From positions 1 to 31,939 of IMG/VR virus record IMGVR_UViG_3300037961_001168: DNA of 31,939 nucleotides; one strand, 5' to 3'. The position numbers and the translations under genes are program-made. Positions 2,719 through 29,323 of this stretch are shown piece by piece. The notes under the pieces are model-generated. The model was not told the DNA's origin and searched no databases. It saw nothing but the letters and a program-made list of their open reading frames with translations. This DNA is from a virus. Numbering within the stretch: the first letter of the stretch is position 1; the number at the start of each line of letters is the position of its first letter.

Positions 2719-3635
2719 TTTGCCTCCCTGTTAGCTATTTTTTGTTTTTCTTTAGCAACGGATTTTAACCATACGTCATCTGCCATGCCATGCGGTTTAA
2801 TCCCACGGAGCGTTTCGACTTCACTTTTTGTGAAAGATACGCCGTTCTTTTTGCCTTGTGTTTTTTGCCGACTTCCTACGGAAGCAGAGGCGACTCTTTG
2901 CACAGCGGGTCCGCCCTCACTTTGTCCAGCATTATCGGATTGTAAACCCGGATAAACTTTATAAACTCTTGAATTTAACTCATTATAATACTCTTCTGAG
3001 TCTGGTTCATAGCCTTCTTGAACCAAATTTACATGAGTAAAATACGCATATTGTGTTGGTTCAGCATCTTGACCATACCATTGATTTTGTTTTTGCCAAC
3101 TCAAAGCCTTTTCTGATGGCGGTTCTGGTTGAGCTTGTTGCGGTTGTTGCGGTTGTTGTTGCTGATAAGGAACATATTGCGACTGTTGTGCTGTTTGTTC
3201 CTGTTTTTGTTTTGCAACTCTAATTTTTTCTTTTTGTATAGAAACCTCAGATTTTAAACTGTCAGCCTTTGACATAAGATCTGCGTCGCCAGCAGAGTGA
3301 GCTCTTTTGTAGAGATCATTTGCCTCTCTTTCTTTAGCCTCAACTGCCTCTTCTTCTTTTTGCAGTATAGTTTGTTGTTGTTGCATCGCATGTTGATAGT
3401 AATTTTGAGCCTCTACTTCTTTTTGTTGTAAAGCAGCTTCTAATTTTGCAGCTCTTTCTTCTGTTGCACGATTACGGGCGTTTAGTTTATTAATACGCTT
3501 AGATACACTTTTGGTGTAATTTTCTAACTCGTCTTCACTTGAAGCATCGGACGACGCTTCGTTTTCAGTCACTTCTACCTCAATTTCATCAACCTCTGGT
3601 TGCTGAACTTCTTTTACTTCGTTTTCTGTTGTCAT
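2715..3635 (-). CDS. Capsid scaffolding protein
   Basis: 306 residues with the design of a scaffold: a very acidic N-terminus (residues 1-45), a long coiled coil (about 45-150), a Gln/Pro-rich linker (about 150-180, including a QQQQPQQPQQ tract), and a C-terminal part with WQKQNQWYGQDAEPTQYAYF. The W..Q.QW.G.D motif followed by a YEPDSEEYYNELNSRV-type segment is typical of scaffold proteins of marine podovirus-like phages. It would guide assembly of the capsid protein around the portal and leave before DNA fills the head. The genes on both sides overlap it by four bases. Confidence 0.8.
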   Translation of the reverse strand: MTTENEVKEVQQPEVDEIEVEVTENEASSDASSEDELENYTKSVSKRINKLNARNRATEERAAKLEAALQQKEVEAQNYYQHAMQQQQTILQKEEEAVEAKEREANDLYKRAHSAGDADLMSKADSLKSEVSIQKEKIRVAKQKQEQTAQQSQYVPYQQQQPQQPQQAQPEPPSEKALSWQKQNQWYGQDAEPTQYAYFTHVNLVQEGYEPDSEEYYNELNSRVYKVYPGLQSDNAGQSEGGPAVQRVASASVGSRQKTQGKKNGVSFTKSEVETLRGIKPHGMADDVWLKSVAKEKQKIANREAK

Positions 3636-4075
3636 AAGCTCACTATGTCATCTGGATTGAGAATGGTGGCTATTACTTCATCATCATTGATGATTCTAAC
3701 CTCCGCACCATCTTCAAGTTTAAATCTTGAACCGGAGTAACGTCCAATTAAAACCCATTGTTTTTCTTCACACCAAGGTTTATCTCCAAATCTAGCCTTA
3801 TCGTTATAGCATTGTGGTCCTTTTTTGACAACATAAGCTACTATACTTGCTAGAGCCTCACGATCTTTTGTTTCTTTTGTAAGTATAATACCGCCTTCTG
3901 TTTTTGCTTTACCAGCATAGGGCAGCACTAACATTCTCCATCCTGTTGGTTGTGGCATCCGTTCTAATATTGAAGCGTCCAACTTTTCTGGATTTAAAAC
4001 CACTTCTTCGGGATCTACATAGGCCTCTGCCACTTTTTTTGCCATTATGTTGTTTTCTACTGCTTCTGAACTCAT
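3632..4075 (-). CDS. GroES-like co-chaperonin
   Basis: 147 residues. From residue about 44 the protein follows the GroES/Cpn10 fold: GWRMLVLPYAGKAKTEGGII, a mobile-loop-like GGIILT, a middle section with KKGPQCYND, then WVLIGRYSGSRFKLEDGAEV and a C-terminal DDEVIATI. The 43-residue N-terminal extension is not part of GroES. It probably caps the host GroEL chamber during folding of the capsid protein, as T4 gp31 does. Its place between portal and scaffold supports this. Start ATG at 4075 overlaps the stop of the preceding gene (ATGA). Confidence 0.85.
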   Translation of the reverse strand: MSSEAVENNIMAKKVAEAYVDPEEVVLNPEKLDASILERMPQPTGWRMLVLPYAGKAKTEGGIILTKETKDREALASIVAYVVKKGPQCYNDKARFGDKPWCEEKQWVLIGRYSGSRFKLEDGAEVRIINDDEVIATILNPDDIVSL

Positions 4076-8786: not shown

Positions 8787-9239
8787 TTAAACTTCGTGCC
8801 ATTGTTCGTTTTGAAAAAGCAGTGATTCAGCTTCTCTACGACGTATTAATCCTTGCAAAGTTTCACCGCCAGCTTTATTCCACCTACGCATTTGTGCTGG
8901 TACTTCACTCTTTTTGTTATCGTTTAGAACTTTAAGCATGGTGCTTGCATTAAGATTTGCAGGACCAAGATTAAATGTCCAAGACACCAAAGCATCAAAC
9001 TCATGTTGCTCCAGCGGTACTTTTACTGCTTTATTTACAGCTTCTTCAAAAACCTCAACGTCCTCTAATAACAAAGCATCGGCTCTTTCTTGTGATATTT
9101 CCATGCCTTCTTTAATACCGCTAGTTGAACCATATCCTATTGTCCAAACGCCAGCAGCACATTGATAGCTTTCAAGTTTACAGCCTTCAAACTTTTTAAT
9201 AAGAGCAAGACCTTCTTGTGATATTTCCATTTTATTCAT
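8787..9239 (-). CDS. Endolysin, GH24 T4-type lysozyme
   Basis: 150 residues from the chosen start MNKMEISQEGLALIKKFEG, which has a GGGGAGAATAAA ribosome-binding site and sits just after the thermonuclease stop. The muramidase signature is clear: FEGCKLESYQCAAGVWTIGY with catalytic E18 and T33, and C27 where T4 lysozyme has Asp, a substitution common in P22/R21-type lysozymes. The C-terminal RRREAESLLF is also typical. It cleaves the glycan chains of peptidoglycan. No signal peptide or anchor is present with this start, so it needs a holin. A longer upstream reading into the thermonuclease gene is rejected. Confidence 0.93.
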   Translation of the reverse strand: MNKMEISQEGLALIKKFEGCKLESYQCAAGVWTIGYGSTSGIKEGMEISQERADALLLEDVEVFEEAVNKAVKVPLEQHEFDALVSWTFNLGPANLNASTMLKVLNDNKKSEVPAQMRRWNKAGGETLQGLIRRREAESLLFQNEQWHEV

Positions 9240-9240
9240 T

Positions 9241-9636
9241 TTATTCTCCCCATTTTTTTGTTTTTGTGCCGCCATAATAATCGACAGCAAGATTTTCTTT
9301 TTTGAGCAAATCAGCGATATTGCCTTTTTCGCAAAATACATCGCCTAATACCCTCCCATATTTGTCAGTTCCATAAGATTTGAGTGTAATATCTCCGACC
9401 AACCATTCTTTTAATTTTTGTTTTGCTAACAAACCAAGTTCTTTTTCTTTTGTTCTTTCTGGATATTTTTTTATGTTAATTCTACTTTCTGGTGTATCAA
9501 TACCAGCAATCCTTACAGCTTTATTGTGTAATTGTACTGAAAAACCAAGATCTATGGTTAATAGACGAATAGTATCTCCATCGGTTACTGATTTTAATTT
9601 GCATTTGTAAACAAAAGCGTCTGGTGATTTACTCAT
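9241..9636 (-). CDS. Thermonuclease, staphylococcal nuclease-like
   Basis: 131 residues from MSKSPDAFVYKC (GAGAGGG ribosome-binding site). The SNase fold is shown by VTDGDTI (metal-binding D19, D21), RIAGIDTPE (R42, D47, E50) and DKYGRVLGD (R95), which line up with the active-site Arg35, Glu43 and Arg87 of staphylococcal nuclease, so it should be active on DNA or RNA with calcium. No signal peptide is visible with this start. It lies between lysozyme and spanin and overlaps the spanin stop by eight bases. It may degrade host nucleic acid late in infection or reduce viscosity at lysis; that is inference. Confidence 0.88.
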   Translation of the reverse strand: MSKSPDAFVYKCKLKSVTDGDTIRLLTIDLGFSVQLHNKAVRIAGIDTPESRINIKKYPERTKEKELGLLAKQKLKEWLVGDITLKSYGTDKYGRVLGDVFCEKGNIADLLKKENLAVDYYGGTKTKKWGE

Positions 9637-10018
9637 TACCCTCTCCTTCATTAGTGGTTACTTTTCTATAGTAAACAACTACCTCTTTGAGTTCTTTAAT
9701 ATATCTTTTTAATTCTTGCATATTATAAGACATAAGCTCATAGTCTGGGACAGACATAGCAACGAATACAACAGATCCGTGCTCTTGTTCTACACGCTCT
9801 AAAAATTCGTCTATGTTTTTCTCGGAAACTACATACCAATACGGATCTTTTAAATCCACAGCTCTAGGCAAAATTGGTTGCACAATCTTACGTTCTATTG
9901 GTTTACTAATTACCTCTACTTTATTGCTCGGAATTAGGCTGCAACTGCAAACCGCTATCGAGATCGTCGATACCAGCAGTATCTTTTTCAATGCTATCGA
10001 ATACATCTTTTGTCCCAT
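9629..10018 (-). CDS. Probable outer-membrane spanin (Rz1-like lipoprotein)
   Basis: 129 residues. A basic start, a hydrophobic stretch KKILLVSTISIAVCSCSLIP with a Cys at the lipobox position (IAVC or VCSC), and a mature region with a Pro-containing segment VQPILPRAVDLKDPYWYVVS. It overlaps the inner-membrane spanin candidate by 98 bases in another frame, the hallmark arrangement of Rz/Rz1 pairs. It is longer than classical Rz1 (about 40 mature residues): the extra C-terminal part (FVAMSVPDYELMSYNMQELK and onward) is a conserved domain I recall from marine phages but cannot name. It probably fuses outer and inner membranes at lysis. Confidence 0.6.
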   Translation of the reverse strand: MGQKMYSIALKKILLVSTISIAVCSCSLIPSNKVEVISKPIERKIVQPILPRAVDLKDPYWYVVSEKNIDEFLERVEQEHGSVVFVAMSVPDYELMSYNMQELKRYIKELKEVVVYYRKVTTNEGEGNE

Positions 10019-10319
10019 TGTTTACCCTAGTTTCTATTAGTCCGGGTTTAGCTATAGCTAATTTAGACAGGTTATGTCGTTTGAAAATGTCAAGATACCT
10101 TGACATCTCCGCTTCTATTTCTTGATTTTTTGATTGTAATTCTAATAAAGAGTTAGTTTGTAAGGTAAAATCGTTTTGTAAATTTTCTATTGCAGCTTTT
10201 TGCTCTGCATCTCTGAGTTCAAAAGCATCATTGAGAGCAGACAGTCTACTATTTTGCCAGTATAAAAAACTACACAATAAAACCAGCACGCCAATTACGC
10301 CTAAAAATACTTTACTCAT
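9921..10319 (-). CDS. Probable inner-membrane spanin (Rz-like)
   Basis: 132 residues with the design of an i-spanin: a single N-terminal membrane helix (about residues 4-20, VFLGVIGVLVLLCSFLYW), a periplasmic coiled coil (about 25-75), and a conserved segment LSKLAIAKPGLIETRVNNGT followed by KDVFDSIEKDT. That segment is typical of Rz-like proteins of marine phages. It overlaps the cyclase gene by eight bases and the lipoprotein gene by 98 bases. The partner at 9629-10018 supplies the outer-membrane half. Confidence 0.68.
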   Translation of the reverse strand: MSKVFLGVIGVLVLLCSFLYWQNSRLSALNDAFELRDAEQKAAIENLQNDFTLQTNSLLELQSKNQEIEAEMSRYLDIFKRHNLSKLAIAKPGLIETRVNNGTKDVFDSIEKDTAGIDDLDSGLQLQPNSEQ

Positions 10320-12063
10320 TTACTGTCCATATCTCTAATTTGTCTTTTTTACCTTTTACATTGATAGGTTTTAGTAATTTTAATACAAGTTTACAATTTT
10401 TTGCAGTCTTGTGTCCAATTAATATATCTTCGCCAACTTCTTTTGTTGCACTCTCAAGTCTAGCTGCCGTATTCACAGGATCACCAATAGCTGAATAATC
10501 AAACCGAGTATCGCTACCCATATTACCAATTACTGCATACCCAGACTGACAACCTACGCCTACTTGGACTGGAGTAGTGAGTGTTTTATTAAGTTCAACT
10601 ATACCCTTTTGTATATCTATTGCAGCTTGCACTGCTTTGGTTTCATGGTCTTCTAAATCTAAAGGAGCTCCAAATATGAACATTCCTGCATCGCCGATAA
10701 ATTTATCCGTCATTCCACCTAATTTTTGCACAGCGTTTACCTGAACAGTTAAAGTTTGGTTCATTATATCGGTCACTTCTTCTGGCGATAATTTTTCACT
10801 TAATGAAGTAAAGCCACGAAGATCTGTAAAAAGATAAGTGCAATATTTTTTCTCGCCACCAAGTTTTAACAAGTCTGGATTGTCTTGCAGCTGTTTAACT
10901 TGTCGTGGATCTAAATAATGTTCAAATTGTTTTTTAATTTCTAAACGCAATTTATACTGTTCTCGGAAGCGCATATAGAAAACTACGCCACTCATAAGCA
11001 TTTCTGATACAAAAGTCCAAGAAAAGTCTAATAAAATCCCGTTTTTGATGCTAAAAACGCCTAAGACGCCCGTAGAGGCAATAAAAATTGCTCCTAAGGC
11101 CAAACCCTTGGTCATGTTAAGATATGCAAGGAGAATTGAAATGGTGAGCACAAAAATCGTAAAAATTAAAATTTCGACCGCAATCGCCCAATCTGGAATG
11201 TAAGGTGAGTTTTCTAACAAAATTGACTCAGATAATGCAGCTTGAATTTTGTGTGGCTCAAGTAATCCAACTGGCGTTGCAACTTGTGGCATGATACCTG
11301 CGGCATCTACTCCAACAAAAACATATTTGCCATTGACATCCATTTCTTCTAATGTGGTTTCTGGTGTTTTTACCCAAGACACCCATTTTCTACCCAAGCG
11401 GTCTACATCAACAGGTGGTAAACCTTGCACAGTAATTTGTTGTATGCCATTTTCGTCGCCTTTTATTATGTAGGTTTTGGCTCCTACTATCATTTTTAAA
11501 ACTTCGGTTCCGAAACTTGGCACAAAACCATCTGGTGTTTGGTACAACAAAGGCACGCGTCTAACTAAATTATCCACCTCTGTTGGAGCCGAGGAAATAC
11601 CTTGGGGGAGAGATTGGAGTAACAGTGTATTTTCTACGACTCCAGAGGCAGATATACCAGATATATTATCGCCGAGCAAAACAGTGCCCGTGGTAGGTGG
11701 GTACTTACCATTGTTATATTCATACATAGATAAAACAGATGGGCCATAGCTTAGTGCTTCTAAAAAAACTTCATCGCCACCAAAACGATCGGGTTGTGGA
11801 AAGCTAACAACCCAACCCACACCAAGTGCACCTGCATTTAATAAATCCACATGTATTTGTGCTAAACGACTTCTAGGAATAGGCCAGCCACCCTCTTTTT
11901 CTATGTCCTCTTCACTGATACTTAAAATAACAAAGTTACCACTAGGTTGTTGTTCTTCTACAAAAGCATCAAATGTTTGTAATTTTAAGATCTGTAAAGG
12001 ATATAACTGAAACAACAGTGGCAGTAACAGTATTATAAATGTCGTGAATATTACTTTTTTCAT
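10312..12063 (-). CDS. CHASE2-domain adenylate cyclase (class III)
   Basis: 583 residues. Residues 4-20 are a membrane helix, 25-285 a periplasmic CHASE2 sensor domain (DAFVEEQQPSGNFVILSISE; GWPIPRSRLAQIHVDLLNAG), followed by three membrane helices at about 293-365 and a cytoplasmic class III cyclase (405-580). Catalytic residues are in place: metal ligands D414 (FTDLRGFT) and D458 (FIGDAG), purine-binding K454, and N531 and R535 (VNTAARLE). S524 replaces the Thr/Asp usually paired with the Lys, so cAMP rather than cGMP is likely but not certain. It overlaps the FecR gene (TAATG) and the spanin gene (8 bases). CHASE2-cyclases beside FecR genes occur in bacteria; in a phage lysis module this is unusual. 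Confidence 0.92.
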   Translation of the reverse strand: MKKVIFTTFIILLLPLLFQLYPLQILKLQTFDAFVEEQQPSGNFVILSISEEDIEKEGGWPIPRSRLAQIHVDLLNAGALGVGWVVSFPQPDRFGGDEVFLEALSYGPSVLSMYEYNNGKYPPTTGTVLLGDNISGISASGVVENTLLLQSLPQGISSAPTEVDNLVRRVPLLYQTPDGFVPSFGTEVLKMIVGAKTYIIKGDENGIQQITVQGLPPVDVDRLGRKWVSWVKTPETTLEEMDVNGKYVFVGVDAAGIMPQVATPVGLLEPHKIQAALSESILLENSPYIPDWAIAVEILIFTIFVLTISILLAYLNMTKGLALGAIFIASTGVLGVFSIKNGILLDFSWTFVSEMLMSGVVFYMRFREQYKLRLEIKKQFEHYLDPRQVKQLQDNPDLLKLGGEKKYCTYLFTDLRGFTSLSEKLSPEEVTDIMNQTLTVQVNAVQKLGGMTDKFIGDAGMFIFGAPLDLEDHETKAVQAAIDIQKGIVELNKTLTTPVQVGVGCQSGYAVIGNMGSDTRFDYSAIGDPVNTAARLESATKEVGEDILIGHKTAKNCKLVLKLLKPINVKGKKDKLEIWTVNE

Positions 12064-13178
12064 TAGGATTCTTGCCTTATTGTTATGGTTGAGTTGCCTG
12101 TGCCATTGATTTGCACAACCTTAGATACGCCGTCTTGTATAAAAATTACTGTGTAAGATTGATCTCCATTTACAAGAATTTGGGCACTTTGATTTACTGT
12201 ACGAATTAGTTTTACTTGGCTGCCTTGAATTAGTGTAGTTATTTGTGTATCTCTGTCTTGACCAACAGCTGTGCCTGCTATATTAATACCAGCAACAAAA
12301 TTAGTAAGCTGGTCTTCTTCTTCTTTAGTATCTAACTCGTCAATAACGTCTAACAAATCTTCAAGAAAATTTACATCTAATAAATCAATATCTAGTTCTG
12401 TAAAATCAAAGTCTGGATCTTCTTCCAATAAATCTTCTGCTAATAAATCTACGTCTAAATCTGTAAAATCTAGGTAATCAGCGGTTTGTGTTTGCTGTAC
12501 TTCTTCCTCTGATATTTCTTGTTTTGGCGGTGAAACAATAAGTAAGTTATCAATAAACTCTAAAGATATATCTAAGGTTACAGGTTTAGATGGTGTGCTT
12601 TCAAACACAGTTGTAGTGGTAGCTTGGTAGGGTTTGTTCAATACAACCTGTCCTGCTGCGGTTGTTACTAATATTTCGCCACTAGCATCGCCAAACTGAT
12701 TAGGCAAAAGAATTATTAAACTTTCGCCAAGCTCGTTTACTGTTGCTGTAAAGTCCGTGCCTCTTACAAAAATTTGTGAAGTCGGCGTGGATAAAGTTAT
12801 ATTTTTTTTGTTTAGCTTATTTACATTGCCAGATATAAAACGAATAGTACCGCTAGCAAACTGCAAAGCCATTTCTGATTTATCTGGGTTTGGATCAAAA
12901 ACATACTTATCAATTAGTAGTTGTGAATGTTCGGTTAGCTTTACTGTGCTGTCATCAAGAAACGTAATCGCAACACGACCAGCTCGTGTTTGCACCTCAT
13001 CATTTGAGGCTATGTCAAAATTTAATTCTGCTGGATAAGTTTCATCCCTAACTACCTGGCCATAGCCTTTTAATTCGGTAATATCACCGATACTAGCAAC
13101 TTGTGCTTGTACCGCCGTCGCTTTGTACGATGCAGATATTAGAATTAGAAGTGTTAGATATGATTTTAAGCCAGTCAC
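12063..13178 (-). CDS. Secreted FecR-domain protein
   Basis: 371 residues from a GTG start; the signal peptide (residues 1-25, LTLLILISASYKATAVQA) decides the start because no later start keeps it. A FecR domain spans about 57-190 (DEVQTRAGRVAITFLDDSTV; TPTSQIFVRGTDFTATV). A strongly acidic Asp/Leu repeat segment follows at 235-285 (DLDVDLLAEDLLEEDPDFDF-like units). The last 40 residues include VQINGTGNSTITIRQES, which resembles one curlin repeat. The first 86 bases overlap the end of the curlin-like gene. FecR domains act as periplasmic signal or binding modules; here it likely works with the CHASE2 cyclase downstream. No kinase or sigma factor gene is near. Confidence 0.85.
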   Translation of the reverse strand: MTGLKSYLTLLILISASYKATAVQAQVASIGDITELKGYGQVVRDETYPAELNFDIASNDEVQTRAGRVAITFLDDSTVKLTEHSQLLIDKYVFDPNPDKSEMALQFASGTIRFISGNVNKLNKKNITLSTPTSQIFVRGTDFTATVNELGESLIILLPNQFGDASGEILVTTAAGQVVLNKPYQATTTTVFESTPSKPVTLDISLEFIDNLLIVSPPKQEISEEEVQQTQTADYLDFTDLDVDLLAEDLLEEDPDFDFTELDIDLLDVNFLEDLLDVIDELDTKEEEDQLTNFVAGINIAGTAVGQDRDTQITTLIQGSQVKLIRTVNQSAQILVNGDQSYTVIFIQDGVSKVVQINGTGNSTITIRQES

Positions 13179-13809
13179 GAGCTAAAGTAGATGTTTGATC
13201 TATGTTAAAAGTATTACCACTGCCATCTAGGTCAAGATAAAAATATCCAGCGTCGCTTGAGCTTGCTCCATAGCCACTACCAGTAAAATTTATTGTATTG
13301 GTTGATCCGTTTATGTCCATGTAATTGGTTGCATATTCGTAATCAATGTCAAAATCAAGATCGTTGCTGTCGCCAGTAATAATCCAATCCAAGTCCAAAT
13401 AACTTGCATCGTCATCTTCACCTATTTTTATGTCAGCAGTGTTGCTTGAGCCTGTAACATCGATGTTTAAATTTACATAGTCTGTTGAACTAAGACCTGT
13501 TGAGTTCATTAGTAAGTCCCAAACATTGCTGTCGCCATCAAACTCAAAGAAACCTGTAAAGTTACCGCCGTCTATAGCATCAGATCTAAAAATATTACTA
13601 GATCCTATTTGATTGATGTCGAGCACCATACTTGCTCCGTCCAAATCGAGAGCAGTCATTGTGCCTGAAACAGCAGATGTACCACCAATAAGGTTAGTAG
13701 ATCCTAGCTGTTCGAGATCAATAGAAGCATTAGAGCCGCTTTGATCCACAAAAATTTCATTATCAGCTAATAAGTTAGCTGACAACAAAAGAATAAATAA
13801 ATATCTCAT
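13093..13809 (-). CDS. Secreted curlin-like repeat protein (CsgA/CsgB type)
   Basis: 238 residues from MRYLFILLLSANLLADNEIF, whose ATG overlaps the csgG-like stop (TAATG) with GGAG upstream. After a signal peptide (about 1-16) come eight or nine repeats of roughly 20-28 residues. The first is classical curlin: DQSGSNASIDLEQLGSTN (Q-x-G-x-x-N...Q-x-G-x-x-N). Later ones follow hxhxhxG(S/D)SNxhxh, for example INQIGSSNIF, IDVTGSSNTADI, LDGSGNTFNIDQ. Asp replaces many Gln/Asn of bacterial curlin, giving a very acidic protein. Two Cys lie in the last 15 residues. It follows csgG, so it is the likely exported, possibly amyloid-forming substrate. Confidence 0.82.
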   Translation of the reverse strand: MRYLFILLLSANLLADNEIFVDQSGSNASIDLEQLGSTNLIGGTSAVSGTMTALDLDGASMVLDINQIGSSNIFRSDAIDGGNFTGFFEFDGDSNVWDLLMNSTGLSSTDYVNLNIDVTGSSNTADIKIGEDDDASYLDLDWIITGDSNDLDFDIDYEYATNYMDINGSTNTINFTGSGYGASSSDAGYFYLDLDGSGNTFNIDQTSTLARDWLKIISNTSNSNICIVQSDGGTSTSC

Positions 13810-14654
13810 TAGTTCTCCGTAAAAGTCCAAAAACCTAACTCACTACCTTGGTTTATAATATCAACGATACCAATTTCTATGGCGCTTTGCAAAGCGATGG
13901 ACTTACTTTCGTTCATAGCATTTCCAGACTCATACTCAACTAATTCAAGACCATCGGCTATATATCTAAAATAATCTTTAGATATTCCTACTGATAAGAT
14001 TGTTTTAGTTGTTAAGTTTTCAAGCAATATTTCACCTGTGCTTACCGACACCATTCGTATAGAAACCAATACAGTATCTTCTCGATATTGCTTGCTTGCG
14101 CCTATGCCTAGGTATCTTGCGCCGATACCACCAGTTAAAAGATTGGTATTGTAATCGACAATCCCACCCTCAATAATAAGTCCAGCAAATAACAAGGGAA
14201 GCTGTTTATTATTTTCATCAAATTTTTCACGAGTAGATCTAATTATCTGCCTTTCTTTTGTTATGTGATCTATACCACCACGCTCAACTACACGAAAGAA
14301 CCCAGATTGTTTTAGTGCTCTAATTAAGTATGTTTCTGGTGCTTGAGTCATTGCAGTAGAAAAATTAGCATAGCCATCTACACTTTTTCTTTGCCCGGTA
14401 TAGTCGCTAAACTTGTAAACAGCTACCACAGGTTTTTGTTTTGGAGCAGGAACCTCTAGTATTTCTTTTGTAATCGGACGATTTATGAAGGCTGATTTAG
14501 AAAAACACTTGCGCTCACCAATAATAGTAACTAGGTCTTTATAGTCTTGGTCTGGGTTTTTAAAGCAGGGTGAAACATACTTTTGATGCGTCGTGCAACT
14601 AACCACCAAAGCCAAAGTCGCCAATAGGGATAGTGATTTCGGTAGTGCTTTCAT
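13809..14654 (-). CDS. csgG: CsgG-like outer-membrane curli export lipoprotein
   Basis: 281 residues. A lipoprotein signal (LATLALVVSC, lipid on C20) precedes a CsgG domain: VVAVYKFSDYTGQ, ANFSTAMTQAPETYLIRALK, VVERGGIDHITKERQIIRST, GGIGARYLGIGASKQYREDT and a C-terminal helix region. N97 and F98 match the Asn-Phe pair in the channel constriction of E. coli CsgG. CsgG forms a nonameric outer-membrane channel that exports curlin subunits. The protein carries about 50 residues between lipid anchor and core that E. coli lacks. The gene overlaps csgF by 56 bases and the curlin gene by one, implying co-expression. From memory, CsgG-like genes occur in some marine phages. Confidence 0.93.
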   Translation of the reverse strand: MKALPKSLSLLATLALVVSCTTHQKYVSPCFKNPDQDYKDLVTIIGERKCFSKSAFINRPITKEILEVPAPKQKPVVAVYKFSDYTGQRKSVDGYANFSTAMTQAPETYLIRALKQSGFFRVVERGGIDHITKERQIIRSTREKFDENNKQLPLLFAGLIIEGGIVDYNTNLLTGGIGARYLGIGASKQYREDTVLVSIRMVSVSTGEILLENLTTKTILSVGISKDYFRYIADGLELVEYESGNAMNESKSIALQSAIEIGIVDIINQGSELGFWTFTEN

Positions 14655-15075
14655 CTAAAGTATTATAAATGGTTAATGTTATATATGTCCCATCGGAGGT
14701 CCAAGTTATGATGTTATCAAATAAAGTAAAAGATCCAGAGGTTGCTGGGTTTTCACCAAACAACTGTTCAACTAATTGACGTGACAGCTGAGCGAAAATT
14801 CTCGATTCAAAATTACGAATGAATCTAGCCAAAGTAGTGTTTTCTTCCTCACGTTTTGCTGCCTCTTTCAAGGCCTTAATTTCTGCTTCTAAGGCCTCAC
14901 GCCTAGTGAACTCTTGATTTTCAATGGTCAAATAATGAGCCGAAGTTCCGACACCGCTGAAAGAGGGTGATTTGAATCCGAATTTAATTTCATCTCCAAA
15001 TATAAATGGTGTGAATAATAAGATATAACTACTTATTATTTTTACGAGGGGATTTTTGTATATTACTTTTTTCAT
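14599..15075 (-). CDS. csgF: CsgF-like curli assembly factor
   Basis: 158 residues. A signal sequence (about 1-27) gives a mature N-terminus DEIKFGFKSPSFSGVGTSAH, matching the F-x-F-x-(N/S)-P-x-F-x-G motif by which CsgF inserts into the CsgG pore. It continues with a helix (RREALEAEIKALKEAAKREE and FIRNFESRIFAQLSRQLVEQ) and a C-terminal beta region ending IPIGDFGFGG, as in CsgF. In bacteria CsgF attaches the curlin nucleator to the CsgG channel. The gene directly precedes csgG. Its start overlaps the preceding membrane-protein gene by 47 bases. The order csgF-csgG-curlin differs from the E. coli csgDEFG / csgBAC arrangement. Confidence 0.85.
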   Translation of the reverse strand: MKKVIYKNPLVKIISSYILLFTPFIFGDEIKFGFKSPSFSGVGTSAHYLTIENQEFTRREALEAEIKALKEAAKREEENTTLARFIRNFESRIFAQLSRQLVEQLFGENPATSGSFTLFDNIITWTSDGTYITLTIYNTLDESTTEITIPIGDFGFGG

Positions 15076-15301
15076 TTTCTTTTAGCCTAACAACAGTGTC
15101 GACCTTCTCTTTTAAGCGTATCATATCTTGGTCGAGTAGTCGAAGTTGATCGGTCAGTCTGATAATAGTAGTTTTCATCTCAGATACAGCAGGATCTATG
15201 GTTTTGGTGATAGTTTGCCATACATAGTAAACAAAATAGCCTAGACCTATAACCATGACTGTAGGAAAACCAAACTTTTGTATAAGATCAACAACCTCCA
15301 T
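15029..15301 (-). CDS. Small BhlA-like membrane protein, copy 2
   Basis: 90 residues from MEVVDLIQKFGFPTVMVIGL, whose ATG overlaps the previous stop (TGATG). One membrane helix at about residues 11-32, then a long amphipathic coiled coil (EMKTTIIRLTDQLRLLDQDM) and a basic tail. The layout resembles BhlA/UviB-type holin-like proteins. It is a diverged copy of its upstream neighbour: both have a GxP turn, a GYF in the helix and an EMKT/EIKT-type segment followed by D-x-IR. Its 3' end overlaps csgF by 47 bases. A membrane role in lysis or in the curli cassette is inferred. Confidence 0.6.
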   Translation of the reverse strand: MEVVDLIQKFGFPTVMVIGLGYFVYYVWQTITKTIDPAVSEMKTTIIRLTDQLRLLDQDMIRLKEKVDTVVRLKENEKSNIQKSPRKNNK

Positions 15302-15597
15302 CAATCTCTTCGGGCGTCGATTTTGCCATCTTCTACAAAGTTTTCGGCTCTTGCAATTCGGTCAAGATCTGGCGGTATATCTAAAGCACTGCTAACAATG
15401 GTGTCTATGCGTATAATATCATTGTTCATTATAGAAGCTCTAGTGATAAGCATTTTAGTTATGCCTTGGACAGTTTTGATTTCTGCTACAAGACCAGTCA
15501 TAAGTTGTTTGATTATGATAAAAATAAAGTAACCCATGATAAGGCCACTCGCGATCGGCAAACCTAAATCACTTATCAAGCCTATGGCTTGGTCCAT
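15301..15597 (-). CDS. Small BhlA-like membrane protein, copy 1
   Basis: 98 residues. One membrane helix near the N-terminus (LGLPIASGLIMGYFIFIIIK) followed by an amphipathic helix (LVAEIKTVQGITKMLITRAS) and a charged end. Paralogous in layout and key positions to the next gene (15029-15301). Start ATG overlaps the holin stop (TAATG). Small proteins of this design often accompany holins in phages; the function is not established here. Confidence 0.6.
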   Translation of the reverse strand: MDQAIGLISDLGLPIASGLIMGYFIFIIIKQLMTGLVAEIKTVQGITKMLITRASIMNNDIIRIDTIVSSALDIPPDLDRIARAENFVEDGKIDARRD

Positions 15598-20197: not shown

Positions 20198-20226
20198 ATT
20201 ATAACTGAAACTTTAAAGATTTCTAA
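20198..20226 (-). promoter_or_regulatory. Candidate sigma-70 promoter of the tail operon
   Basis: On the minus strand: TTAGAA, 17 bases, TATAAT (perfect -10 at 20198-20203). The -35 box overlaps the recombinase stop codon. Transcription would start at or next to the ATG at 20191, giving a leaderless message, which agrees with the missing ribosome-binding site. Confidence 0.5.
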
Positions 20227-21011
20227 TCGTGAAGGCCTTGGAACTTTCTTTTGAGTATTCTTTGGACTTTGTGATACGGAAAGTCCTCATAGCCTGGATG
20301 TGAATTTTGGATCTGCGTAGCTATCTTTCTAGCACCTAAACCTTTTTCTCTCAAGGCGTAGATATGTTTTAATACCTCTTGTTCTTTTGGGACTGGCACT
20401 AGCTTAGTCCTTCTTCTACTGCCAGAGTCATCGTATTCTTTGGTATAACCAAAAGGTGTTTGTCCGCCGATTGAATAGCCTTTTTCCGCATAGACTAACT
20501 TTCCGCCGTTGAGCCTAGACATAATCATTTCTCTTTCTATCTCAGCAAACTGCGCCATATTGGTCAGTAGGTTTTGGTTAGCAAGTCTAGTCATATCCAT
20601 TTTTGCCTCAAGACCTGTCTTGGCTTTTTCTTTGGGCAAGACTACCGGTATGTCTGCAAACATATCGCAGAAGAATAATGTTATCCCAGACTCTTCTAAC
20701 GTTGGGACCATATTAACCATCTCTAAAAAGGATCTTGCAAGCCTGTCTAGTTTGGTTGCTACTATCACATCGTTGGCGTCCATGGTGTCAGTCAGCTCTC
20801 TGGAGCCTGGTCGCTCTAACAAAGGTTTCATACCGCTTATGCCAGCGTCGGTAAAGAACTTGTCAACTTTCCTACCGCCGTATTTGTTAGCGACAAACTC
20901 CTCAATGGATCTCTTTTGCTCGTCGAGTGAAGATCCGTCTTTGACCTGCTGCTCAGACGATACTCTGATATAGCCGTAAATATTGTTTACTTGTTTTCTT
21001 GGTTCAATCAT
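20223..21011 (-). CDS. Serine recombinase (resolvase/invertase family)
   Basis: 262 residues. The N-terminal catalytic domain (about 10-165) has YGYIRVSSEQQ with nucleophile S18, FFTDAGISGMK, and VATKLDRLARSFLEMV with arginines R90 and R93; EIEREMIMSRLNGGK marks the start of the linker helix. The C-terminal part (180-262) is a short recombinase/DNA-binding region with an HTH-like GARKIATQI. It is longer than resolvases (about 185) and much shorter than large serine integrases (450 or more), and lacks a zinc ribbon. It could resolve genome multimers, invert a segment, or integrate. A GGAGA site precedes the ATG. It diverges from the plus-strand island. Confidence 0.9.
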   Translation of the reverse strand: MIEPRKQVNNIYGYIRVSSEQQVKDGSSLDEQKRSIEEFVANKYGGRKVDKFFTDAGISGMKPLLERPGSRELTDTMDANDVIVATKLDRLARSFLEMVNMVPTLEESGITLFFCDMFADIPVVLPKEKAKTGLEAKMDMTRLANQNLLTNMAQFAEIEREMIMSRLNGGKLVYAEKGYSIGGQTPFGYTKEYDDSGSRRRTKLVPVPKEQEVLKHIYALREKGLGARKIATQIQNSHPGYEDFPYHKVQRILKRKFQGLHD

Positions 21012-21538: not shown

Positions 21539-21711
21539 ACAAAGCTAAATACTTTAACCAAGTCATGCCAAAGCTAAAGGCTAAATATAAATTTACAGAT
21601 AATGATTCTATAATTGATATTATGGAAAACATTATTACTGATCCTAAAGATCTACAACAATTCAAGCTGGCGTTTAAATATCCCAACGGCTTGCCTAAGT
21701 GGTTGCATTGA
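21535..21711 (+). CDS. Unknown 58-residue protein of plus-strand island
   Basis: 58 residues: MNKAKYFNQVMPKLKAKYKF, then TDNDSIIDIMENIITDPKDL and a tail FKYPNGLPKWLH. It overlaps the preceding gene by four bases and the methyltransferase start by one (TGATG), so all are translated as a chain. No ribosome-binding site other than the purine-rich GGGGAAAAAAA before its ATG. I do not recognise it. Confidence 0.6.
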   Translation: MNKAKYFNQVMPKLKAKYKFTDNDSIIDIMENIITDPKDLQQFKLAFKYPNGLPKWLH

Positions 21712-23492
21712 TGAAGGTACTAAGTTTATTTGACGGAATGAGCTGTGGGCAAATTGCTCTCAAGCAGCTCGGCATTAAAGTAGATACTTATTACTCATCC
21801 GAGATTGATAAGTATGCTATGCAAATCACACAAAAGAATTTTCCAAACACTATACAAGTCGGCGATATTTGTAATTTAGATCCTAAAGATTTTATGGATG
21901 TGGATTTGATACAGGCTGGCTCACCTTGTCAAGGATTTTCTTTTGCTGGCAAGCAGTTGGCGTTTGATGATCCTAGGTCTGCGTTGTTCTTTGAGTTTAT
22001 ACGCTTGCTCAAAGCCATCAAGCCAAAGTATTTTTTGCTTGAAAATGTCAGAATGAAAAAAGAGTTTTTAGAGGTAATTACTGAGCAAGTATCGAGCTGT
22101 TATACAGCAGATGATGTTGCACCAGAGTTCAAAGACATGTTTGGCAATGTGAAGTTTGAGCCGCATTTTATTAATGCTTCTTTAGTTAGCGCTCAATCAA
22201 GGCAAAGATACTACTGGACTAATATACCTGGAGTCAAACAGCCAGAGGATAGAGGTATAGTATTGAGAGATATATTGGAAACAGAGCCAGAAAGTATTAC
22301 TAAAATGTCAGAGAAGTTTGTCAAAAGAAATGGCGATAAAAATTGCATGATTGACCAAAACAAAGAAAAGGCTAGTAATTTATCTGCTATGGAGTATGTC
22401 AAGAATGGTAGACAGGGCGATTATTTGGCGTGCGATCAAAGTGGCAAACCAACTAATAAGCCAATCAAAGTAGGCATGAATGTAGAAGAGGTAAAGGTTA
22501 GAAAGCATGAAGTCAACATATCTGGATTGCAACATCTTTTACGAGAGATGAAGAAAGAGTCTAAGAAAACAAACAAACAGATAGCAAAAGAAACTGATCT
22601 TCCTGTAACTAAGGTGGAGCATTGGTTTAGAACCGACAAGAGTTTTGCGATACCTAGCGAAGATATATGGTTGAAACTCAAAGAAGTTTTAGGTATTAAG
22701 ACAGAAGTGTTCGATGCGTCGATTATGGAGTTTGAATACAAGGATGGTGTATTTGAAAGCACACAAAGGGTTTACAGCGATCAAGGTAAATCACCTACAC
22801 TTACTGCATCAAACAAAGAGCAGATGATAGAAACTAAGCCAAAACAAGTAGGTGTTGCAGTAGATGTTAATGGATATGATTGTCTTAAACGAGTCTATAG
22901 TCCAGATGGTAAGTCGCCTACAGTAACAACCTGTCAAGGTGGTAATACAGAGCCAAAGGTAGTTACAGGTGCGGCATTTCGTGGTAGAGCTTATGATAAA
23001 GATGGTAAACGCATGGATAAAGATGGTAAATCAGTAGCAAATCAAACCAAACAAATGTTAGAGCTGCGTAAGGATAATAAATCAAATGCAATAACAACAG
23101 TTGGTAAAGATAGTGTGGTTGTTGAAAAGTTGCCAGACAAATCTAAGGTATTAAAGGCTAATTATTACAAATCATCAAAAGCCAACTTTGAAAATGATAC
23201 AAGCAAGGGTGGTAAGTTTTCAGCTACAGGTGTGCCATTAGAATCAAAGGTAAGAGAGAAGTCTAAAACAGTTAGATCTGGTGGCAGAGGATCTTATGAC
23301 AGGCATGAATGGGATAGTGTTGATGAACTACACTGGCGTAAGCTAACACCCTTAGAATGTGAACGATTGCAGACAGTCCCAGATAATTATACTGAGGGTG
23401 TGTCTAACACACAGCGCTACCGCATGCTCGGAAATGGCTGGTGCGTAGCAGTAATCGAACACATATATCAAAACATGGAACACGATGAGTAA
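21711..23492 (+). CDS. DNA (cytosine-5) methyltransferase
   Basis: 593 residues from MKVLSLFDGMSCGQIALKQL; the ATG overlaps the previous stop (TGATG). C5-methyltransferase motifs are present in order: FDGMSCG (SAM binding, 7-13), PCQ with catalytic C73 (SPCQGFSFAG), ENV (111-113), QSRQR (162-166), and the C-terminal LTPLECERLQTVPDNY ... RYRMLGNGWCV. The target-recognition region (about 190-540) is large and includes an HTH-like insert at about 264-335 (TNKQIAKETDLPVTKVEHWF) and two GKSPT(L/V)T units. No restriction enzyme gene is adjacent, so it is an orphan: protection from host restriction or gene control are the usual roles. Confidence 0.93.
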   Translation: MKVLSLFDGMSCGQIALKQLGIKVDTYYSSEIDKYAMQITQKNFPNTIQVGDICNLDPKDFMDVDLIQAGSPCQGFSFAGKQLAFDDPRSALFFEFIRLLKAIKPKYFLLENVRMKKEFLEVITEQVSSCYTADDVAPEFKDMFGNVKFEPHFINASLVSAQSRQRYYWTNIPGVKQPEDRGIVLRDILETEPESITKMSEKFVKRNGDKNCMIDQNKEKASNLSAMEYVKNGRQGDYLACDQSGKPTNKPIKVGMNVEEVKVRKHEVNISGLQHLLREMKKESKKTNKQIAKETDLPVTKVEHWFRTDKSFAIPSEDIWLKLKEVLGIKTEVFDASIMEFEYKDGVFESTQRVYSDQGKSPTLTASNKEQMIETKPKQVGVAVDVNGYDCLKRVYSPDGKSPTVTTCQGGNTEPKVVTGAAFRGRAYDKDGKRMDKDGKSVANQTKQMLELRKDNKSNAITTVGKDSVVVEKLPDKSKVLKANYYKSSKANFENDTSKGGKFSATGVPLESKVREKSKTVRSGGRGSYDRHEWDSVDELHWRKLTPLECERLQTVPDNYTEGVSNTQRYRMLGNGWCVAVIEHIYQNMEHDE

Positions 23493-24031: not shown

Positions 24032-24283
24032 ATGCCACACATACCGCCGATACCTTTTCATAATAAGGAAAGTAAAAAAAATTTTGACTTTGCAGAAAAC
24101 ATTTACTTAGCCATGTTTTACTTTATGCCTACCGACACAGTTGCGGCTTTAGAAAAACATTATTTAGTCAATAAAAAAGCTGTAGCAACTATGCAGCGCA
24201 TGAGTCCCAAGCATTACGATAAATTAATCGAAGATTTTAAGACAAGAAAAAAAGAAATCCTAGAGAAAGATACTAAGGATTAA
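24032..24283 (+). CDS. Unknown helical protein, last of the plus-strand island
   Basis: 83 residues from MPHIPPIPFHNKESKKNFDF; an in-frame TTG four codons earlier is possible. The centre (AENIYLAMFYFMPTDTVAAL, EKHYLVNKKAVATMQRMSPK) is helical and could be a small DNA-binding fold (a V.ALEKHYLVNKKAV.T pattern like a two-helix unit), but I cannot name it. Its 3' end overlaps that of the converging gene at 24273 by 11 bases, so no separate terminator fits here. Confidence 0.6.
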   Translation: MPHIPPIPFHNKESKKNFDFAENIYLAMFYFMPTDTVAALEKHYLVNKKAVATMQRMSPKHYDKLIEDFKTRKKEILEKDTKD

Positions 24284-26636
24284 ATATATCGATATTGTCG
24301 ATTGAAAAAGGTTTTAGGACAGCTCCACCAATCGCAAAGTTAGAAAAGCCTTCCTCAAGTATTTTCTTTTTCATTTCTGGCGTGATGTAGATGATGTTGG
24401 CGTCAAATCTTTCTCCTCCAGTTCCATAAGGATCTAATCTTACATCCCCTGGTTTGGGTTTATAAATATCGTCTAAATCTAATTTCCCTTTCTCAAACTT
24501 ACCGCCGTATTTATTTGCTAGCTTTTTCATGGCCGAGGGTATCTTCTGATCGTATAGAGTTTCATAAAACTTGCTATACTGATCGGTATATCTCGCTTTG
24601 ATTGGAGCGGAGCTTGATACAGAAATAGCATCGGAACCCTCTTCAATCGCGTCCATGAGTAGTTGTTTCAGTGACATGGCATACCAATCGTCTTTGAAAG
24701 GGTAGTTAGGAACTCTTGCTTCTTTAGCAGATGCAATTTTGAAAGCTGGTTTCAAGGCGTCATCAAAAGGTGTAAATGCAGCTATATCTTCTAAAGTTGC
24801 ACCTTTGCCCACCCCTAATTCGTTCAAACTATTTATAGCATCAAACATAATTCTTCTAGCATCGTTCATTCTAACAAGAGAATATCTGTCTTGAGGATTT
24901 CTAGCATAAAGTTCCTCTGCATCTGCTATTTGTCTTTTTATTTGATTTATGTCTACAGATCCAATAGTAACTCTATCTCCCATGGCATCTTCGAGCTTTG
25001 GCAATATCCTATTTTTAAGTTTTGTAAACTCAGTACTAATACCAGAGGACATTTTTCCTAACTGTATTGCATCTTCTGCATCGAGCTCTGGTGTAGAGTA
25101 ACCATCTCTCGAACCTTTAGTATGCAAATCCGATTGTAGCTCGTCGACATGCAAAGTTTGTTTGCCGTCGGCTAGTTTTCTGTTTCGAATCAGAGCGCTA
25201 GATATTTGACTGAGCTCGTCGAAATGATTTTGCACGCCATGTTCTACTGGTGCGTTTTCCCAAGTAAATACAACTTCGCGGTAATTATCTCCGCCAGGTA
25301 ATGTTTTATCTACATCACCTTTGTAACGTGTTTCCGTGGATAAATAATCTGTTTCGCCTGGTAGTCGTAGCGGATCGCCGCCTTCTTCTAAGGCGTTTCG
25401 TAATTGTATTTGTGCCTCGGTACGGCTGTAAGCAACATTATCTGGATCAGTCACTCTTTTACCGCCTACAAAAAGTTGGTAACCAGCTAAATCGTTGCCA
25501 AAAGCAAAAGTATTATCTGCTATGTCAACATCGTAGACTTGGTTGGTAGATTTTGGTACGACTAATTCGTATGGATCGTTAAAATATTGGGCTTTTGCAA
25601 AGTTGTCTATCAAATCATCTAGGCTTTCGTTTCTAGCTGATAAATAATTATCAACATCAGAAATGGTCATGGCTCCAGCCTGTGGATTGCTTTGGTTGAA
25701 AAAGTCTATGACTTCTTGCGTTGTGTAATTATCACCTTGTTCTATGTCATAACGTGTATCTTCTATTATATTTTGATAATTTTTATAAGTAGGATCTAGC
25801 GGATCAAATTCTGGAGTAGAAATATCAAAGTCTATCTCCGGTGCATCTGCATTGTGGAAATAAGTGTTTTTTCCAACCACGACTTTATTATCGCTTACGC
25901 CCTCGACTACTTCGTTGATAGTTGCTTTGGGATTAGTGGCAACAAACTCATCTATACCTAGATATTCTAACTCTTTGGGTTTGACGCCTTTGTTGGCGTT
26001 TGCATTAAGCCATTCAGTAATTTGTTTACCTTTTAAGTTTGGTGGTGCACTTTTAAGTAAGGCCTCCAAAGATGGCGATACAAAGCCGTATTCATCTTTG
26101 GCAAATTTGTCTAAATTTTCTTTGAGCGCAGCTTTGGTTGCATCTGTACCTTTGAGTGCCTCAATGCCTGTGGAAGTTTTCTTTGCTTTTGCAATCATGC
26201 CTGGAACCGCACTTAAAGCTCCAACACCTTTTAAGACAGAACCAACAGTTGCTCCAAGTAGAGGTCCGACAAAGGGTGCTGCATAAGTTGCATCTCCCAA
26301 AACACCTAGTCCTTGTAGTGGAGCTATCACATATCTGTCGATACCTCCTGCGGCTATGTTTTCACTAATGCTGGGCATAGGATCGCCAGCAAAAGCATCT
26401 TCTAGCGCTACATCTGGTCCGGGGAACTCTGGAAAATTACCAGTTGCATCTGCTATGCCTGCGCCCGGTGCAAAAATAGCTCCTATATAAGCGGTCTGTG
26501 CTGGTGTTAGTTGTGCTCGGTCTTCTGAATTGTAATAAATACCTGTTCCTGGCAGTGGACTGCCGATAGATGAAAAAGCAGACAGGTCGCTCTGTTGTAT
26601 TCGCTCTTGCAATGCTTTTCTTTCATCTTCGGTCAT
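24273..26636 (-). CDS. Large polyvalent/internal virion-type protein
   Basis: 787 residues. The N-terminal part has hydrophobic Gly/Ala-rich stretches (about 85-145, for example FVGPLLGATVGSVLKGVGAL) that could contact membrane. From about residue 440 on comes a segment seen in very large phage polyvalent or internal virion proteins: YREVVFTWENAPVEHGVQNH, ADGKQTLHVDELQSDLHTKG, then YPFKDDWYAMSLKQLLMDAI, EGSDAISVSS and ITPEMKKKILEEG. I know this as a recurrent associated domain of unclear function; an enzymatic role such as processing or ADP-ribosyl chemistry is unproven. It could be a protein ejected with the DNA. It follows the oxygenase gene by 25 bases. Confidence 0.65.
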   Translation of the reverse strand: MTEDERKALQERIQQSDLSAFSSIGSPLPGTGIYYNSEDRAQLTPAQTAYIGAIFAPGAGIADATGNFPEFPGPDVALEDAFAGDPMPSISENIAAGGIDRYVIAPLQGLGVLGDATYAAPFVGPLLGATVGSVLKGVGALSAVPGMIAKAKKTSTGIEALKGTDATKAALKENLDKFAKDEYGFVSPSLEALLKSAPPNLKGKQITEWLNANANKGVKPKELEYLGIDEFVATNPKATINEVVEGVSDNKVVVGKNTYFHNADAPEIDFDISTPEFDPLDPTYKNYQNIIEDTRYDIEQGDNYTTQEVIDFFNQSNPQAGAMTISDVDNYLSARNESLDDLIDNFAKAQYFNDPYELVVPKSTNQVYDVDIADNTFAFGNDLAGYQLFVGGKRVTDPDNVAYSRTEAQIQLRNALEEGGDPLRLPGETDYLSTETRYKGDVDKTLPGGDNYREVVFTWENAPVEHGVQNHFDELSQISSALIRNRKLADGKQTLHVDELQSDLHTKGSRDGYSTPELDAEDAIQLGKMSSGISTEFTKLKNRILPKLEDAMGDRVTIGSVDINQIKRQIADAEELYARNPQDRYSLVRMNDARRIMFDAINSLNELGVGKGATLEDIAAFTPFDDALKPAFKIASAKEARVPNYPFKDDWYAMSLKQLLMDAIEEGSDAISVSSSAPIKARYTDQYSKFYETLYDQKIPSAMKKLANKYGGKFEKGKLDLDDIYKPKPGDVRLDPYGTGGERFDANIIYITPEMKKKILEEGFSNFAIGGAVLKPFSIDNIDIFNP

Positions 26637-26661: not shown

Positions 26662-27222
26662 TTATCTAAAAGGCGGACCATTGAACCAAGCAACAACGAC
26701 ATATCTATCGCCTTTGGTCACAGGTTTGACTTTATGTGACAAAAAAGAGCTAAATGCTACCACTTCACCCATTTTTGGGCGCGTACAGCTCTCATTTTCG
26801 CTGGAACGGAAGCAAATTTCGCCGCCTTCATAGTCTTCGTTGAGCAAAAGGCTCATACTGATCTTGCGTGTAGCAGCTGTACCCTCTGGTCCTATGTCCA
26901 AATGATACTCATAGCCGTTAGATGGCGCTTTATAGTGAATTATCTGCGCTTTTTCTATGCCAGTAATGTCATATTTGAAGTATTTATTGGCTGAAAAGGC
27001 AATTTTGTTCAAAATTTGATACAAACGCGTCTGTTTTTCGTCAATATAGTAAATAGTAGCGTCCCGAACAGTTGTTTGCTCGATTTCATCGCCTTTATCG
27101 TGCACTTTGGCCACAATACCTTCGGCTTCAACCACATAATCTAAGAACAGTTCTACATCATCTTGGCTGACAGACAGACCGGTTACGCCGTGATTAGGTA
27201 GAATATCAGTTTTCGTCTGCAT
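26662..27222 (-). CDS. 2OG-Fe(II) dioxygenase (PKHD-type)
   Basis: 186 residues with the prolyl 4-hydroxylase-like fold. Iron ligands are H107 and D109 (YEYHLDIGPEG) and H163 (LSHKVKPV); R173 (DRYVVVAW) would bind 2-oxoglutarate. SLLLNEDYEGGEICF is the usual strand before the second half of the domain, and the family's final strand is present, so the enzyme looks complete. The substrate may be a protein or nucleic acid. Such oxygenases are frequent in marine phages. The gene overlaps the SET-domain gene by 17 bases, suggesting paired modification activity. Confidence 0.88.
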   Translation of the reverse strand: MQTKTDILPNHGVTGLSVSQDDVELFLDYVVEAEGIVAKVHDKGDEIEQTTVRDATIYYIDEKQTRLYQILNKIAFSANKYFKYDITGIEKAQIIHYKAPSNGYEYHLDIGPEGTAATRKISMSLLLNEDYEGGEICFRSSENESCTRPKMGEVVAFSSFLSHKVKPVTKGDRYVVVAWFNGPPFR

Positions 27223-27532
27223 GATAATTTAAAGTAAGCTCATCACCCTCGTTAATATGACTTATTGTATGTAAATGAAAAATCCTATAATCGTCCCAAT
27301 CCAAAAGTTCTATTAAGCAGCAATTTGGTGTTTCTGTATGATTTAAAAAACCACCTAAAGGCGTACGAACGTAGCCATTAATAATTGGTATTTTAATGTG
27401 AGTCATACCTAAATCTGTATCAGCTGGTATCTTTTCAGCTGCGAAGAGTCCCAAGCCTTCGATAACACTATTTTTAATCGTTAGATTGTCCGGCAATGGT
27501 TTGTAATAAAATTTGTTGAATTTATAGTTCAT
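27206..27532 (-). CDS. SET-domain protein (lysine methyltransferase-like)
   Basis: 108 residues, a compact SET domain. Seen: GLGLFAAEKIPADTDLG (26-42, the SAM-binding start), FLNHTETPNC (62-71, the NH-x-x-x-PN pattern that forms the pseudoknot), and EGDELTLNYH (95-104, with the catalytic-type Tyr 103). Length is near the minimum for a SET core, with no pre- or post-SET cysteines. It would methylate a lysine on a host or phage protein. Start overlaps the nuclease stop by four bases (ATGA). Small SET proteins are known in some large DNA viruses and phages; the target here is unknown. Confidence 0.75.
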   Translation of the reverse strand: MNYKFNKFYYKPLPDNLTIKNSVIEGLGLFAAEKIPADTDLGMTHIKIPIINGYVRTPLGGFLNHTETPNCCLIELLDWDDYRIFHLHTISHINEGDELTLNYHADEN

Positions 27533-29224: not shown

Positions 29225-29323
29225 CTAATCTTTATCAAATATCATATACAGCATGAACAAGAGTACGCTCGCAGCAACCATCCCAAACAGTGTACCTAAC
29301 ACTCCAAGCACTATGTCAATCAT
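29225..29323 (-). CDS. Possible 32-residue membrane peptide
   Basis: MIDIVLGVLGTLFGMVAASV followed by LLFMLYMIFDKD: one hydrophobic helix covering most of the peptide. The ATG lies inside the adenine methyltransferase end (8-base overlap, ATGATTGA), which is the coupling style used throughout this genome. Nothing else supports it; it could be chance, but single-helix microproteins are common in phages. Confidence 0.45.
   Translation of the reverse strand: MIDIVLGVLGTLFGMVAASVLLFMLYMIFDKD

Follow-up and report, generated by a model that had tools for sequence, protein, structure and literature searches.

In Escherichia coli, the csg operons encode type VIII secretion, which comprises the CsgG pore, CsgF and a curli-repeat substrate. 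A phage module with comparable genes has already been described in HTVC023P-type podophages and in pelagimyophages (PMC9599517, mSystems 2022), with the order CsgF, CsgG, curli-repeat protein, FecR, in some cases a second curli-repeat protein, and adenylate cyclase. Here we analyzed a 31.9-kb (31,939-nt) phage fragment (IMG/VR record IMGVR_UViG_3300037961_001168, positions 1-31,939), hereafter the window, which carries a cassette of the same order and belongs to the same phage group. This cassette is real and conserved, and it is the one that the text of PMC9599517 describes; the original prediction, made from the window alone, had presented a phage set of pore, partner and exported substrate as unreported, and this claim had to be dropped. 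Superinfection block and host aggregation, two of the roles it had suggested, are also printed in that text as hypotheses. Probably, the cassette is a minimal type VIII system of the phage that exports a beta-solenoid to the surface and is linked to an envelope sensor formed by FecR and a CHASE2-cyclase.

The window departs from the described module upstream of CsgF, where PMC9599517 places one or two histidine kinases and the window encodes holin-like proteins of 90 and 98 amino acids; the words 'holin', 'endolysin' and 'lysozyme' occur 0 times in the main text of that paper. Curli pore genes have also been described in pelagimyophages and in the methylophage Melnitz (PMC7029224, PMC9004378). 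The texts of these two studies reported csgA/csgB to be missing, and PMC7029224 allowed for neighbouring hypothetical proteins as replacements. On the other hand, a curlin protein is annotated in the deposited record of HTVC008M, and two curlin-repeat proteins plus FecR in that of Melnitz, and both phages display the full cassette order. With bacterial curli systems the window shares the CsgG pore, CsgF and, at the level of the protein family, the curli-repeat substrate, but the CsgC and CsgD families are absent among its 37 proteins compared to Pfam, as originally predicted, and FecR, cyclase and holin-like genes are added. The CsgE family was likewise absent from these 37 proteins, the window being a fragment and the loci of its relatives not having been searched for CsgE; this protein boosts export but is not essential (PMC7029224). 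A partial likeness also exists to gene clusters of Campylobacterota, in which a CHASE2 adenylate cyclase adjoins a FecR-domain outer membrane protein; these differ in that they include a phosphodiesterase and a TPR protein, and curli genes go unmentioned in the text that describes them (PMC9239204).

The four overlapping genes first proposed (CsgF, CsgG, curlin-like and FecR) are all located where they had been placed, on the minus strand; the signal peptides assigned to all four proteins are putative, having been judged by eye. The set itself turned out to be larger, since a CHASE2-cyclase gene follows it and two genes for small holin-like membrane proteins (tm1 and tm2) precede it, so that the transcription order reads tm1, tm2, CsgF, CsgG, curlin-like, FecR, CHASE2-cyclase, Rz/Rz1, nuclease, endolysin, and large terminase. 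The CsgF homologue (14599-15075, 158 amino acids) gave the strong profile match that had been anticipated, both to PF10614 in Pfam (49.4 bits against a cut-off of 25.8, E = 6.5e-13) and to phrog_35372 (E = 2.9e-35), and it contains the pore-inserting motif FxFxSPxF; the solved CsgF structure was matched at E = 0.005 only, over the N-terminal part. The CsgG homologue (13809-14654, 281 amino acids), a predicted lipoprotein pore, scored 161.5 bits against PF03783 in Pfam (cut-off 20.8, E = 2.2e-47), and its family profile matched the E. coli CsgG structures 3x2r and 4uv3 at E-values of 6-7e-62. The motifs reported earlier for this protein are also present, namely GARYLGIGA, the Asn-Phe of the constriction, and VVSC, which we take to be a lipobox. 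Counting by regular expression in 154 viral CsgG open reading frames (ORFs), with near-copies and fragments included and positions not checked by alignment, returned SF in 58, NF in 40, LF in 31, other pairs in 8, and no match in 17. By this count, an Asn-Phe constriction is not general among viral CsgG sequences.

The putative export substrate is the curlin-like protein (13093-13809, 238 amino acids), whose ORF probably starts at the ATG at 13809. Its curlin-repeat assignment (PF07012) holds at the level of the family, as 16 of 30 scanned relatives matched at E <= 0.1 (best 1.6e-6), but the window protein falls under the curated cut-off. The claim of true Q-x-G-x-x-N repeats was also confirmed in part: two exact motifs were found, but not a full set. 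The most regular signal came from G-[DST]-[STG]-N turns, of which the window protein has seven, spaced by 22-33 residues (0.31 expected; 0/5000 shuffles reached seven), and G-x-x-N turns were retained across 30 relatives with 4 to 12 in each. An AlphaFold2 model without the presumed signal peptide predicted an all-beta solenoid with a mean predicted local distance difference test (pLDDT) score of 86.8. When the top Foldseek chains were aligned with VIA-align, the best were beta-helices of the SufB/SufD type (Z up to 16.5), and no curlin was among the 50 matches listed, which were proteins with beta-helices, left-handed helices or leucine-rich repeats, plus a few others. The second curli-repeat gene that is optional in the module of PMC9599517 is absent in the window. 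In HTVC008M, such a second protein (L081:10411-11736, annotated as 'hypothetical protein') matched both the curlin repeat (33.1 against 20.7 bits) and PA14 (27.7 against 24); the PA14 domain suggests a surface role, and the protein may possibly be an adhesive part of a phage fibre.

Downstream of the substrate lies the FecR-domain protein (12063-13178, 371 amino acids), which has an acidic linker and a small C-terminal beta domain. It matched PF04773 at 39.5 bits (cut-off 24, E = 7.9e-10), as did 12/12 family members. Foldseek returned nothing for its model at E <= 0.001 and FecR-family anti-sigma domains at E = 0.004, with 86 of 346 modelled residues below a pLDDT of 50. The next gene (10312-12063, 583 amino acids) combines a CHASE2 sensor (PF05226, E = 5.9e-27) with a class III nucleotide cyclase domain (PF00211, E = 2.7e-18), both scoring above their Pfam cut-offs; the cyclase domain would putatively make cyclic AMP or cyclic GMP, and it matched the bacterial cyclase structures 6fht (2.2e-33) and 2w01 (4.5e-29). 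Among 11 sequences, one of them partial, D414, K454 and D458 were invariant and R535 nearly so; presumably, the catalytic positions are the metal-binding Asp pair, the purine Lys and the transition-state Asn and Arg, and the Asn position is occupied by Ser in Melnitz. In Campylobacterota, CHASE2 cyclases clustered with FecR-domain proteins likely form a signalling pathway (PMC9239204), and by analogy the phage pair probably works in this way and not in iron control. A cyclase match beside FecR was also detected in 2 of 30 examined alphaproteobacterial FecR loci, in tandem in one (L242) and on the other strand in the second (L251).

Conservation of the block was assessed with iterated profiles built from the window proteins and run on the ORFs of each locus, with denominators restricted to loci with enough sequence present. 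Within a set seeded with CsgG (the best 80 of 269 IMG/VR loci, plus HTVC008M, Melnitz and the window), CsgF preceded CsgG in 77/77 loci and tm genes lay upstream in 73/73, followed after CsgG by curlin (75/75), FecR (69/69), and cyclase (51/51). A second set, seeded with tm proteins (the best 80 of 545 loci), contained CsgG in 71 loci; the nine without it were five contigs ending after CsgF, one (L153) ending after tm, and three that were cassette-less. In this set FecR was present in 49/49 loci and cyclase in only 31/39, and a further tm-seeded scan yielded FecR in 98/98, the three FecR sets sharing contigs. The association with the exporter is thus closer for FecR, which occurs in all loci with room, than for cyclase, which does not. 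Several of the cyclase-less loci have spanin genes directly after FecR or after a second curlin gene. The gene order is conserved across contigs and the two cultured myophages, HTVC008M and Melnitz, and the set is thus kept together, in agreement with the original prediction. Seven of 50,697 phage records matched the window CsgG, and queries with tm1, the HTVC008M tm and FecR matched exactly the six of these that belong to HTVC008M/Melnitz; the seventh is a 1.5-kb Salmonella phage fragment with no tm or FecR match. The cyclase query also matched three records without the cassette, covering 22-49% of the query. The ratio of nonsynonymous to synonymous substitution rates (dN/dS) of the seven genes against three relatives was 0.006-0.19 in 18 of 21 comparisons, which points to purifying selection, with synonymous distances high throughout; the remaining three were saturated (curlin twice, leaving 1/3 usable, and tm1 once), and tm1 gave 0.006 and 0.015 in its two other comparisons.

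Among 118 Pelagibacter-family genomes, CsgG was detected in two, each time on a phage contig. Ocean phages thus bring a complete secretion module to likely hosts that have none, and infection may give these cells a new surface. The cyclase domain was above the cut-off in 2 of these 118 genomes, on the phage-CsgG contigs G389:C11 and G390:C1, with one further match (G445) below it; class I cyclases were not searched for, and many of the bacterial genomes are probably incomplete. A scan of contigs from bacterial genomes yielded 32 loci, and those in which tm adjoins CsgF (L085-L088, L090, L091, L114) look, from their gene content, like phage contigs binned into metagenome-assembled genomes (MAGs). 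The MAGs that include the cassette-bearing contigs L085, L086, L088, L091 and L114 are assigned to Pelagibacter and to Rhodobacteraceae.

The first prediction, of a minimal type VIII-like exporter that comes with a substrate of its own, is well supported by the profiles, the gene order and the structure model. We propose that the cassette would be expressed late in infection, beside the lysis genes, with CsgG forming an outer-membrane pore and CsgF the surface neck of this pore. The curlin-like protein would reach the periplasm via Sec and leave through CsgG, and could then fold on the surface into a beta-solenoid and remain attached there, forming an adhesive coat or a fibre. In the periplasm, the FecR-domain protein may be the partner of both the exporter and the CHASE2 domain of the cyclase, and a cyclic nucleotide would then report on the condition of the envelope or of export.

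Several observations weigh against this proposal. The window curlin-like protein scored 16.2 bits against PF07012, under the cut-off of 20.7 (E = 0.01), its model had no PDB match in Foldseek at E <= 0.001, and a solenoid is no proof of amyloid. Neither a CsgB-like nucleator nor CsgE was identified in the window, and no clumping was seen in Melnitz cultures according to the text of PMC9004378. The cyclase is missing from 8/39 tm-led loci and from 2/16 whole cassette records. No FecR, cyclase or tm gene was found by these profiles around the six strong bacterial CsgG places in 385 genomes, a survey in which 13 of the 385 had any CsgG match and the six strong places and one weak place were examined. 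Finally, cyclic-nucleotide-binding (cNMP-binding) domains, the receptor type scanned for to the exclusion of others, were found in 0/16 cassette phage records (HTVC008M and Melnitz, deposited as complete genomes, included) and in 5/118 Pelagibacter-family genomes. The cyclase is therefore left without an evident receptor, which is a misfit with the E. coli route that PMC9599517 draws on, where cyclic AMP acts via CRP on csgD.

Among other explanations, a lysis device fares best. The two genes upstream of CsgF, tm1 (15301-15597, minus strand, 98 amino acids), with which the conserved block begins, and its paralogue tm2 (15029-15301, minus strand, 90 amino acids), have relatives of ~80-122 amino acids with a hydrophobic stretch at the N-terminus, present as one gene in 59 loci, as two in 19, and not in view in 5. 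Their best family is phrog_18771 (no known function), matched by 22/22 scanned members; phrog_4898, annotated as 'holin', was matched by 6/22 (best 4e-5), and no kinase family in Pfam was matched at E <= 0.1 by any of the 22. From their position, we infer that these are the 'histidine kinase' genes of PMC9599517. The window cassette thus sits between holin-like genes and the Rz/Rz1 spanin pair (9629-10319; phrog_739, 1.1e-11; phrog_812, 8.3e-13), nuclease and endolysin (8787-9341; PF00959, 8e-48), all on the minus strand, which bears out the flanks originally described. Pore proteins repurposed to time or help lysis, as a pinholin or gated pore acting with the holin-like proteins and spanins, would suit this position, and such a role has been published as a hypothesis for Melnitz (PMC9004378). 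Of 27 loci with enough downstream sequence, 18 also have a lysis gene within 7 kb of the cassette on that side, but the other 9 have none by the profiles used, and none is annotated within ~8 kb on either side in HTVC008M and Melnitz, where hypothetical proteins are many. Moreover, curlin and FecR are present in all loci with room, and a bare pore would require neither.

Contigs that lack the cassette also argue against lysis as its function. Ten distinct contigs (L158, L159, L137, L254, L255, L256, L324, L325, L326, L339) have the tm pair without the genes from CsgF to cyclase, and lysis genes follow the pair in 9 of them: Rz-Rz1 and endolysin are the next recognised genes in L158, L159, L254-L256 and L339, endolysin is so in L137, and in L324 and L325 ~4.3 kb of other sequence (in L324 with a 622-amino-acid ORF and smaller ones) separates the pair from Rz, no lysis gene being seen in L326. 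Lysis therefore does not need the block, and we regard a lysis device as unlikely. When the tm proteins of cassette-less contigs were used as seeds, CsgF was found in 133 of 146 further loci and was absent in 10, the contig ending in the other 3. In a tm tree, five distinct cassette-less sequences were scattered among cassette-bearing ones, requiring 4 changes, of which the starred branches force at least 3; support is weak for many branches, and with shuffled labels the mean is 4.9 changes. The block is thus gained or lost in one piece, and the tm genes remain in place.

Returning to the proposed exporter, the module could be a circuit that both exports and senses. FecR and the CHASE2 cyclase might follow export, or the condition of the envelope, and respond by raising a cyclic nucleotide, with the signal passing to some phage effector or through an ungated CsgG-CsgF pore to neighbouring cells or phages, all within a host that has no class III cyclase of its own and mostly no known cyclic-nucleotide-binding protein. 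Taken as a whole, this reading seems quite unlikely to us. A pure import or leak channel is a very doubtful alternative. Here the ungated pore would admit nutrients or release nucleotides, cyclic ones included, with the curlin-like protein as a plug or relic; import was proposed in the texts of PMC7029224 and PMC9599517, no CsgE gate turned up among the window proteins, and cNMP-binding domains are lacking in the 16 phage records and in 113/118 host-family genomes, but a relic would hardly be present in 75/75 loci with its G-x-x-N turns kept across 30 relatives. Equally improbable is a surface coat that hides receptors from competing phages, which fits surface export and was proposed in PMC9599517; the location of the cassette next to lysis genes, however, points to late expression, a stage at which exclusion would be least useful. 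No bacterial operon already combining CsgG with FecR and cyclase was found around the six strong places in the 385 genomes, which belong to the class of G001, a genome with a Cohaesibacteraceae-titled contig; a different operon may exist elsewhere. Bacterial DNA is ruled out by the terminase, portal, tail fibre and capsid genes of the window, and chance resemblance of the cassette by profiles, conserved gene order and selection.

The holin-like correction, the separable block, the survey of host cyclases and cNMP receptors, and the beta-solenoid model were not met among the matches listed in the literature searched, which excluded supplements, preprints and most subscription journals. The corrected parts, i.e., holin-like proteins, a separable block and a cyclase without an evident receptor, weaken the explanation borrowed from E. 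coli.

As for the phage itself, the large terminase was nearest to that of 023Pt_psg01 (64.5% identity), followed by HTVC027P (59.3%), DSL-LC04 (60.5%), and HTVC023P (57.2%), and the capsid gave a similar picture (023Pt_psg01, 64.0%; DSL-LC04, 63.5%; HTVC023P, 60.9%). The nearest phage, 023Pt_psg01, is accession MW574966, deposited by the authors of PMC9599517. No curli annotation was present in the inspected stretches of 023Pt_psg01 and HTVC023P, up to the terminase, and neither was among the seven phage records matching the window CsgG. The host of the window phage is likely SAR11; the host entry of DSL-LC04 is gammaproteobacterial. A serine recombinase/resolvase (20223-21011, PF00239, 4.2e-26) could be an integrase, and the window phage may therefore be temperate. 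A 787-amino-acid protein (24273-26636) had no PHROGs match at E <= 0.001 and no Pfam match at E <= 0.1. Two putative DNA methylases were also identified, a C5-cytosine enzyme (21699-23492, 5.9e-48) whose 597 amino acids exceed the 324-position profile, with long inserts in the match, and an MT-A70 adenine methylase (29316-29867, 8.8e-30). A 2OG-Fe(II) oxygenase adjoins a 108-amino-acid SET-domain protein (26662-27532), and the structural region encodes a GroES-like co-chaperonin (Cpn10; 3632-4075) with a match above the cut-off (E = 1.1e-6).

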